Positions 18,722 to 22,324 of a stretch of 64,000 bases of DNA are shown in pieces. Every line of letters starts with the position of its first letter. The stretch's first letter is position 1. Location of the stretch: assembly GCA_029246505.1 (NCBI GenBank), contig JAQWNC010000003.1, positions 124,001 to 188,000 of the forward strand, read 5' to 3'. The notes under the pieces are model-generated. The model was given only the letters and a program-made list of their open reading frames with translations. It did not search any database and was not told the DNA's origin. The DNA is from Arenicellaceae bacterium. GTDB lineage: Bacteria; Pseudomonadota; Gammaproteobacteria; Arenicellales; Arenicellaceae. The translations under genes were made by a program, and so were the position numbers.

Positions 18722-20272
18722 TCATTTATCAGCTCTTACTAAGATTACCGGTTCAGTACTTACTTGTTCACTGATTTCTTCACTAGTTACATTTTCTGTA
18801 CTAGTTAAATTCTCAAAACTAGATGCATGCTCGATTATATCCGCACCGAAATCACCTCCAAGTGATTGATACAAGGTAATTCTGTTTTGTAGCAACTGAT
18901 TGCGTAAATCAATTACTGTATTCTGCGAATCAAATGCCCTGCGTTGTGACTCAAGAACGGTTTGGTACTCTGATAGCCCACTTTGGTATTGTTCAAATGA
19001 CAGCTCGTATGCAGCAATAGCATTTTGTTCAGCCTTAAGAAATGAATCGTAACGACGTCTCAAGCGATCTTGTCGGGTAATCGCTCGCTCTACGTCAGAA
19101 AACGCATTATTCACAGCATTCAAATACTGCTGTTCTAATTGGATCACTCGCTGTCGTGCCTGCTCTTCAGTCGCAACCAATCTACCACCCTGAAACAAAG
19201 GCAAGGCTATATTAGTTATCAGCGATCTTGCCAGGCTTCCATTTGTGAGGAGATCAGAAACATTATTAGCATCATCTGACATACTCGCGTTTAGCGTTAA
19301 GCGCGGAAAGCGTTGCTTATGCGCAACGGCCAAACTCAAATCGGCCGATAGCAAATTAAACCAAGTCTGCTGGACGTCAGGCCTGCGTGTTAACAGGTCG
19401 CTGGGAATACCTACTGGAATCGAAGTTTCGATTACCGGCAATTCACGGCTCAGAGGCCATCCACCATCGGGGTAATCCGCAACTAATAATTGTAGTCGGG
19501 ATACCGACTCAATCACGTTCTGCTCTTGCTGAGCAACACGCGCACGTTCTTGTTCCAGACTATTAGAAGCCAAGTACACGTCTACTGCACTATTAAGACC
19601 AGCGCGGTATCCACTACTAATTATCGCCATATCTTGTTCCAAAGTAGCTAACCGCAAATTGAACAGGGCTAACAATTGTTGGTCAGCCATCATTTGATAC
19701 CAAGCTCTGCTGGTATCAGAAACCAGGGCAAGCCGCTGACTAATATAACTGGCTTCGCTCGCGGCATACGACATGGTCGCCTGTTTTTGATTGCTTTTTA
19801 GCCTGCCCCAAATGTCTAACTCCCAACTCGCATTTAAATCTACGCCATAGGTATCGATTGTTGATTGTATCCGGCCAAGTAGTGCACCACGCCGGATACT
19901 ATTATTGGAGGAGACGGACAAACTTGGATAACGATCCGCACCGGCAATAATCACACCTTGCTGGGCTTCTTCCAATCGTGCAGCCTGCTCGGCCAGACCA
20001 TAATTACTAACCAAGGCAGAGATCACTACTTCGTTGAGTTGTTGATCACCAAATTCAGCCAACCATCGATCGCTAGGTTGACCCATCTGCTCATCACTTT
20101 CTTCCTTGCTAGTAGATAACTTAGGCTGATGTACAAATGCATCTGGGGCCTGCAATGAACTCGCCTTGGGCGAGATAGCACTGGTAGCGCAAGCTGACAA
20201 GAATAAGCCCATAGCAAAAGCCCCAATAAGGGAACAAACTGACTTGCTAGATTGATTCACACTCAATTGCAT
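18722..20272 (-). CDS. Outer-membrane factor lipoprotein (TolC/NodT family)
   Basis: A 516-residue efflux outer-membrane channel. It has a lipoprotein signal with lipobox LSAC (Cys28), two repeats of the OEP fold, the GLAEQAARLEEAQQGV helix and LPLFQGGRLVATEEQAR, the signature region of the second repeat. The C-terminal tail of about 35 residues, rich in Glu, Thr and Ser, is an extension. It is the first gene of the three-gene RND operon. The gap to the adaptor gene is 76 bases and a promoter must lie upstream in 20273-20400. Confidence 0.92.
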   Translation of the reverse strand: MQLSVNQSSKSVCSLIGAFAMGLFLSACATSAISPKASSLQAPDAFVHQPKLSTSKEESDEQMGQPSDRWLAEFGDQQLNEVVISALVSNYGLAEQAARLEEAQQGVIIAGADRYPSLSVSSNNSIRRGALLGRIQSTIDTYGVDLNASWELDIWGRLKSNQKQATMSYAASEASYISQRLALVSDTSRAWYQMMADQQLLALFNLRLATLEQDMAIISSGYRAGLNSAVDVYLASNSLEQERARVAQQEQNVIESVSRLQLLVADYPDGGWPLSRELPVIETSIPVGIPSDLLTRRPDVQQTWFNLLSADLSLAVAHKQRFPRLTLNASMSDDANNVSDLLTNGSLARSLITNIALPLFQGGRLVATEEQARQRVIQLEQQYLNAVNNAFSDVERAITRQDRLRRRYDSFLKAEQNAIAAYELSFEQYQSGLSEYQTVLESQRRAFDSQNTVIDLRNQLLQNRITLYQSLGGDFGADIIEHASSFENLTSTENVTSEEISEQVSTEPVILVRADK

Positions 20273-20408
20273 TTTAAATAGTACATCTTGCGTCCAAACT
20301 GACTTGTTTGGATATTTTATTATTGACTACATTTTACTCTGCAAAGCGATAATTAGTAATAAATGAACAATTTATTAGTTATTTGTTACATACCGACATA
20401 GACCCCAC

Positions 20409-20651: not shown

Positions 20652-20680
20652 CTGAAACAGAGCCGTCAATCTGCTATCAT
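20652..20680 (+). promoter_or_regulatory. Extended -10 promoter upstream of the candidate RNA
   Basis: CTGAAA at 20652-20657 and TGCTATCAT at 20672-20680 (extended -10, with TATCAT at 20675-20680) are 17 bases apart. They are followed by a GC-rich discriminator (GCGCTCCGC). A GC-rich discriminator is typical of stringently controlled stable-RNA promoters. The predicted start is at 20686-20690. It could drive an RNA ending near 20840 or a long gltA leader. Confidence 0.45.
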
Positions 20681-20685
20681 GCGCT

Positions 20686-20840
20686 CCGCAATAAAGCCTG
20701 CGGACACACTAGAACGATATTGCTTGATTAGCTTATTTACCGTTCTAGTTCCTCGCCAACGTGTGGATATAGAGAAATTAATTCTTATCCACAATGGTCA
20801 AAGGCAACGCATTGGCTTACTGGTAAGCCAATCAATATTT
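20686..20840 (+). ncRNA. Candidate structured RNA or gltA leader with four consecutive stem-loops
   Basis: Four perfect-stem hairpins follow one another on the plus strand. CCGCA/TGCGG pairs at 20686-20703. ACTAGAACG pairs with CGTTCTAGT (20708-20749). TGTGGATA pairs with TATCCACA (20762-20793), with an inner AGAA/TTCT stem. ATTGGCTTA pairs with TAAGCCAAT (20811-20832, loop CTGG), followed by ATATTTTT. A good promoter precedes and the last hairpin looks like a terminator, so a transcript of about 150 bases is plausible. No protein frame fits. It does not look like 6S, SRP, tmRNA or RNase P RNA. It could instead be an attenuating leader of gltA. The surrounding 20273-20967 holds no gene. Confidence 0.4.
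20811..20840 (+). terminator. Terminator-like hairpin before gltA
   Basis: A perfect 9-bp stem (ATTGGCTTA and TAAGCCAAT) closes a CTGG tetraloop at 20811-20832. CAATATTTTT follows, so the T-run begins a few bases after the stem. It would end the candidate RNA or act as an attenuator ahead of gltA. Confidence 0.4.
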
Positions 20841-20967
20841 TTACAACTTTACTGTAGCGTCAGCTCGCCCTGATTATTAATTGAGAAATTATTAATTTCG
20901 GTACTAGCGCGTATACAGCGTGTAGCTTTCCATACGCGTACTAAAAATTTTATATGAGACAGCCGTT

Positions 20968-22245
20968 ATGACTGATAAAAAAGCTCGTTTAAATATCGAC
21001 GGATATGATAAAGAAATAGAACTTGATGTATATGAAGGAACCATGGGGCCAGATGTAATTGATGTGGCCCCGGTGCTCAAACACGGGCACTTCACTTACG
21101 ACCCGGGATTCACCTCAACCGCAAGTTGTGAGTCTGCTATTACATTTATTGATGGGCACAAAGGCAAACTGCTGCATAGAGGCATTCCAATCGAGCAGAT
21201 TGCTGAAAAAACTGACTACCTGAATCTTTGTTACTTGCTTTACTACGGCCACTTACCAAACAAGGAACAAGAGGCCGATTTTAAGAGTACGATCACTCGG
21301 CACACTATGCTACACGATCAGATTTGGAATTTTTATCGCGGATTCAGGCGAGATGCTCACCCAATGGCAATTATGTGCGGCGTAGTCGGTGCCTTGGCTT
21401 CATTTTACCACGACGCATTAGACATCACTAATGAAACCCATCGCAATATAACTGCGCATCGTCTAATAGCCAAAATCCCAACGATTGCGGCAATGTCATA
21501 CAAATACACTACCGGGCAGCCATTTGTCTATCCAAAAAATAATTTGGGGTATGCAGAAAACTTCCTGCACATGATGTTTGGAGTACCGACTGAAGAAACC
21601 GTAGTCAGCCCCATTCTTGCAAAAGCGATGGATCGAATATTCATGCTGCATGCTGATCACGAACAAAATGCATCTACATCTACGGTTAGACTGGCTGGAT
21701 CTAGTGGAGCCAACCCATTTGCTTGTATATCAGCCGGCATCGCAACTCTATGGGGACCTGCTCATGGTGGTGCAAATGAAGCTTGCTTAGAAATGCTGGA
21801 AGAAATCGGAACCCCAGACAAGGTTGATGGATACATAACCCGAGCCAAGGACAAGAATGATTCATTCAGAATCATGGGTTTTGGTCATCGGGTATATAAA
21901 AATCACGATCCGCGTGCCACAATAATGAAAGTAACATGCGACGAGGTTCTAGCCGATCTTGGCATTGAAGACTCGCCATTATTTCAGGTCGCACGCAGAC
22001 TGGAAGAAGCAGCACTAAATGACAACTACTTCATAGAGCGAAAACTCTACCCTAACGTCGATTTTTATTCCGGTATCATCCTTAAAGCAATCGGTATTCC
22101 GCCAAATATGTTCACCGTAATTTTTGCCCTATCTCGCACTATTGGATGGATAAGCCACTGGAACGAGATGGTCAGCCAGTCATATAAAATTGGCCGCCCA
22201 CGACAACTTTATACTGGTCCCGTAGAAAGAGACTTTCCGGCTTAA
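20968..22245 (+). CDS. gltA: Citrate synthase, type II
   Basis: A 425-residue TCA-cycle enzyme condensing acetyl-CoA and oxaloacetate. Catalytic regions are present: [10 protein letters not shown] (His near residue 265), [13 protein letters not shown] (His near 305) and YPNVDFYSG (Asp near 365), plus the N-terminal beta domain ([14 protein letters not shown]) of the hexameric NADH-sensitive type. The ATG at 20968 has a weak ribosome site. The upstream gap is 695 bases, and no sdh genes are divergent here as they are in E. coli. It ends 30 bases before a clear terminator. Confidence 0.97.
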
Positions 22246-22274: not shown

Positions 22275-22307
22275 AACCCGGCCGTAATGATTACAGCTGG
22301 GTTTTTT
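22275..22307 (+). terminator. Rho-independent terminator of gltA
   Basis: AACCC at 22275-22279 pairs with GGGTT at 22299-22303. The stem is extended inward by GGC/GCT pairing and by an inner GTAAT/ATTAC stem, and is followed by a run of six T. Confidence 0.75.
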
Positions 22308-22324
22308 GTTCCCCAGAAGAACGG

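Follow-up and report, generated by a model that had tools for sequence, protein, structure and literature searches.

A probable gltA mRNA leader with lineage-specific hairpins in a genus of Arenicellaceae

Introduction

In E. coli and other Gammaproteobacteria, the gltA mRNA has a long 5' leader, and its promoter lies a few hundred bases upstream of the gene. A limited literature search turned up no publication on an attenuator or leader RNA of gltA. Since entry into the TCA cycle is controlled by citrate synthase, a constrained leader of 280 nt hints at post-transcriptional control in this little-sampled lineage. Here, we analysed a stretch of 64,000 nucleotides from an Arenicellaceae bacterium, hereafter referred to as the window, in which an earlier note had described segment 20686-20840, upstream of gltA, as a candidate novel structured RNA or attenuating leader. 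Statements about conservation rest on two genomes, that of the window species and that of one congener (G001), whose gltA protein is 88% identical. We propose, with a probability of roughly 0.55, that the gltA mRNA carries a 5' untranslated leader of about 281 nt and that the segment forms its first half. The best reading is that this leader is restricted to the genus and that its hairpins are lineage-specific. Most likely, it is a long mRNA leader of the ordinary kind and does not represent a new RNA class.

Results

A gap of 695 bp separates gltA from a divergent gene for a NodT-type efflux outer-membrane protein, and this gene order is common to the window species and the congener. The promoter and the four stems of the segment sit in the gltA-proximal part of the gap. 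The locus comprises the following features.

18722-20272, minus strand: NodT-type efflux outer-membrane gene, divergent from gltA
20652-20680, plus strand: promoter, CTGAAA, 17 nt, TATCAT with TG extension, then discriminator GCGCTCC
20686-20703, plus strand: stem-loop 1, 5 bp; sequence GCAATAAAGYCTG conserved; the congener breaks the outer two pairs
20708-20749, plus strand: stem-loop 2, 9 bp; the congener keeps 4 of 9 pairs; loop GCYTGRTTAGCTT conserved
20762-20793, plus strand: stem-loop 3, 8 bp; the congener keeps 5 of 8 pairs; DnaA-box-like TTATCCACA in the right arm
20811-20832, plus strand: hairpin 4, 9 bp here and 7 bp in the congener, with one U-A to U-G change
20918-20939, plus strand: hairpin 5, GCGUGUA...UACGCGU (UACACGC in the congener), just upstream of the gltA start
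20968-22245, plus strand: gltA, 425 aa, type I citrate synthase (TIGR01798)
22275-22309, plus strand: canonical intrinsic terminator of gltA, which served as a control

Elsewhere in the gap, segment 20408-20446 is a tandem array of about 3.5 copies of the 11-nt unit CACAATTCCTG, and a terminator-like hairpin is found on the plus strand at 20292-20313, immediately upstream of where the divergent efflux gene starts. The gltA protein of the genus is closer to proteins of Halieaceae and related Gammaproteobacteria, with 73% identity to the closest named protein, than to proteins of its own order outside the genus, to which it is at most 67% identical. Citrate synthases of the other family members examined are all more distant, with identities of at most about 53%. 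On these sequence comparisons, the gltA of the genus may have a history separate from that of the order, possibly through transfer or differential loss.

The extended -10 promoter with a GC-rich discriminator that the earlier note placed upstream of the hairpin array is present. The extended -10 element is TGCTATCAT, 9 of the 12 hexamer positions match, the spacer is 17 nt long and GCGCTCC follows. The core of this promoter, TCTGCTATSAT, is also present in the congener (locus L022), where its spacer to CTGAAA is 19 nt. No further promoter-like site was detected on the plus strand from the promoter to gltA, including the part after hairpin 4; gltA therefore relies most simply on the upstream promoter and on read-through. 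The earlier statement that the segment has no protein frame is inaccurate, as an open frame runs from TTG 20646 (ATG 20679) to 20873. This frame is not a gene, because its ATG lies inside the promoter and the equivalent frame of the congener closes after 18 codons.

The intergenic region upstream of gltA in the congener can be aligned with that of the window species. Between the two species, the promoter stretch is 57% identical, the element 61%, hairpin 4, which is the most conserved part, 82%, and the remaining leader 52%; the corresponding values are 37% for fourfold-degenerate gltA sites and 35% for the far upstream intergenic part. The former values exceed the latter two, in the element by far, so that constraint acts all the way from the promoter to gltA. 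In addition to TCTGCTATSAT, the congener retains GCAATAAAGYCTG, the stem-2 loop GCYTGRTTAGCTT, GTGGATRTAGA and the hairpin TGGCTTACTSGTARGCCA. Thus, in both genomes, a conserved promoter lies upstream of gltA and constrained sequence extends from it up to the start codon.

In the window species, the four stem-loops with perfect stems of 5, 9, 8 and 9 bp are as previously described. The minimum free energy of 20686-20840 is -47 kcal/mol, compared with -29.2 +/- 3.4 for shuffled sequences (z -5.3), and none of 200 shuffles folded as well. Against an intergenic background of 1798 windows, taken from 45 kb of long intergenic stretches in 464 kb of the same genome, the best local window (from 20663) ranks 13th, and is about the seventh distinct place in this genome sample; one of the better-ranked places is a tRNA cluster. 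The fold of the segment is well above that of shuffled sequence and uncommon, yet neither unique nor singular. A z of -5.3 is nevertheless a high value if the structure of the leader has no role, and it counts against the leader reading. The strongest-folding intergenic place in the sampled genome is L176, about 2586-2770, with z -7.5 and without an Rfam match. Two gltA upstream regions of Microbulbifer also fold more strongly than the segment, L104 (about 2771-2925) with z -7.1 and L103 with z -6.0; they have no similarity to the element.

The fold itself was not recovered in the congener. The counterpart of the element there, 192 nt long, folds no better than its shuffles (z +0.53), and all 155-nt windows across the 500 nt that precede the congener gltA stayed at or above z -2.3. 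In a hand alignment, stems 1 to 4 keep 3 of 5, 4 of 9, 5 of 8 and 7 of 9 pairs, respectively, while random substitution at the identity of each stem keeps means of 3.0, 4.0, 4.7 and 6.8 pairs. By this comparison, which has little power with one relative, stems 1 to 4 show no sign of selection on pairing. RNAalifold on the 3' half found hairpins 4 and 5 in both species; hairpin 5, which is absent from the earlier note, is a candidate picked post hoc. The shared pairs of these two hairpins have three differences, all one-sided and pair-preserving, and two of them are in hairpin 5. Stems kept through compensatory changes, as a conserved structured RNA should have, were therefore not seen in this single relative, a comparison of low power. 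Most stems are lost in the congener while the promoter core and the leader sequence stay. The loss of stems in relatives, which the earlier note had named as evidence against its own proposal, is seen in this one relative for stems 1 and 2 and the terminator tail, and in part for stem 3. Sequence constraint and a strong single-sequence fold (z about -5) can thus coincide without the fold being conserved.

A rather unlikely alternative is that the same promoter yields a stable small RNA, about 150 nt long, whose 3' end is at hairpin 4, gltA being expressed by read-through or separately. The strong fold in the window species, the promoter directly upstream and the terminal hairpin with its T-rich tail agree with this. 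However, the properties of hairpin 4 fit it poorly. The hairpin has GC pairs at 3 of 9 positions and the tail CAATATTTTT; the sequence after it, CAATATTTTTAC, has an offset, interrupted U-tract, and the congener has AAAAACTAAC at this place, without a U-tract. On a U-tail score of our own implementation, which serves for comparison only, hairpin 4 scored 0.62 here and 0 to 0.04 in the congener, whereas the gltA terminator at 22275 scored 3.77. The GC-rich hairpin with an immediate U-run that marks an intrinsically terminated small RNA is lacking, and even the weak tail is absent in the congener. Of the terminator-like closing hairpin described earlier, the hairpin stands, with a weak tail. Partial termination is possible in the window species, because ATATTTTT lies close to its hairpin 4.

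The absence of the fold from the congener and the narrow distribution of the sequence also speak against a small RNA. The Rfam 15 scan that had been suggested as a check gave no family at or above the gathering threshold for 20686-20840, the best sub-threshold match (E = 2.9) being on the other strand. A sequence model of the 5' part had convincing matches only in the two genus members among 109 genomes of the order, and no homologue was found in the 107 others; the only extra match was a weak piece (E = 0.07) in its own genome. The comparison of gltA upstream regions, also suggested, yielded an alignable congener and no homologue upstream of 124 other citrate synthase genes. No repeats or paralogues of the element were found elsewhere in the genome. 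The element is not the 6S RNA, which this genome carries elsewhere (C12, 91.5 bits).

It is also rather unlikely that the locus encodes a regulatory RNA confined to the genus and controlling citrate synthase. The working parts of such an RNA would be the conserved loops and hairpins 4 and 5, not stems 1 to 3, and extra stabilising stems would have been gained in this species.

An attenuating leader is improbable. In such a leader, hairpin 4 would be the terminator, and the stem-2 loop (20724-20735) would pair with the 3' arm (20824-20835) as an anti-terminator. The two segments are complementary at 11 of 12 bases, the loop sequence is conserved, and a frame of 10 codons, MVKGNALAYW, ends within hairpin 4. 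However, the alternative pairing has no energetic advantage over shuffles (p = 0.10; p = 0.62 for the congener), and hairpin 4 forms with a predicted probability of 0.99. The congener has neither the start codon of the short frame nor the U-tract, and MVKGNALAYW, for which no Shine-Dalgarno sequence was seen, was rejected as a leader peptide. The condition-dependent attenuator of the earlier note gained nothing from these results.

It is equally doubtful that the inverted repeats act as DNA, serving as putative binding sites through which DnaA (at TTATCCACA), for example, or a dimeric regulator would control gltA or the divergent efflux gene. The arms of stem 3 do resemble inverted DnaA boxes (TTATCCACA at 20785-20793), and the two strands fold about equally well (z -5.07 for the minus strand). 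However, the candidate sites lie downstream of the promoter, the congener has neither DnaA-like box intact, and a DnaA-box cluster was rejected because the window has two copies of TTATCCACA where 0.65 would be expected, a count reached in 14 of 100 shuffles.

Discussion

The observations are best described by a transcribed and constrained gltA leader. This part of the earlier proposal is upheld by the conserved promoter core and by an identity well above that of synonymous sites; the other part, a novel structured RNA, is unsupported, as the congener counterpart has z +0.53 and its pairs are kept no better than under random substitution. In the leader reading, the conserved extended -10 promoter would initiate transcription near 20686, and the transcript would run through hairpin 4 into gltA. 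The lineage-specific hairpins would most likely protect the 5' end of the mRNA or slow its turnover. If there is regulation, its likelier sites would be the short conserved sequence blocks, together with hairpins 4 and 5.

Among known systems, 6S RNA (RF00013) is like the element in its similar length and stable fold, and differs in that its copy in this genome is encoded at another place. Attenuator leaders, such as the Trp leader (RF00513), share with the locus the hairpins between promoter and gene and a last hairpin that is terminator-like; unlike them, the element has no model match, no supported alternative pairing and no conserved leader peptide, and its U-tract is weak. The gltA upstream regions that were compared outside the genus have no sequence match to this leader. 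The gltA leaders of Gammaproteobacteria, for example that of E. coli, are like this locus in having a distant upstream promoter and an untranslated leader.
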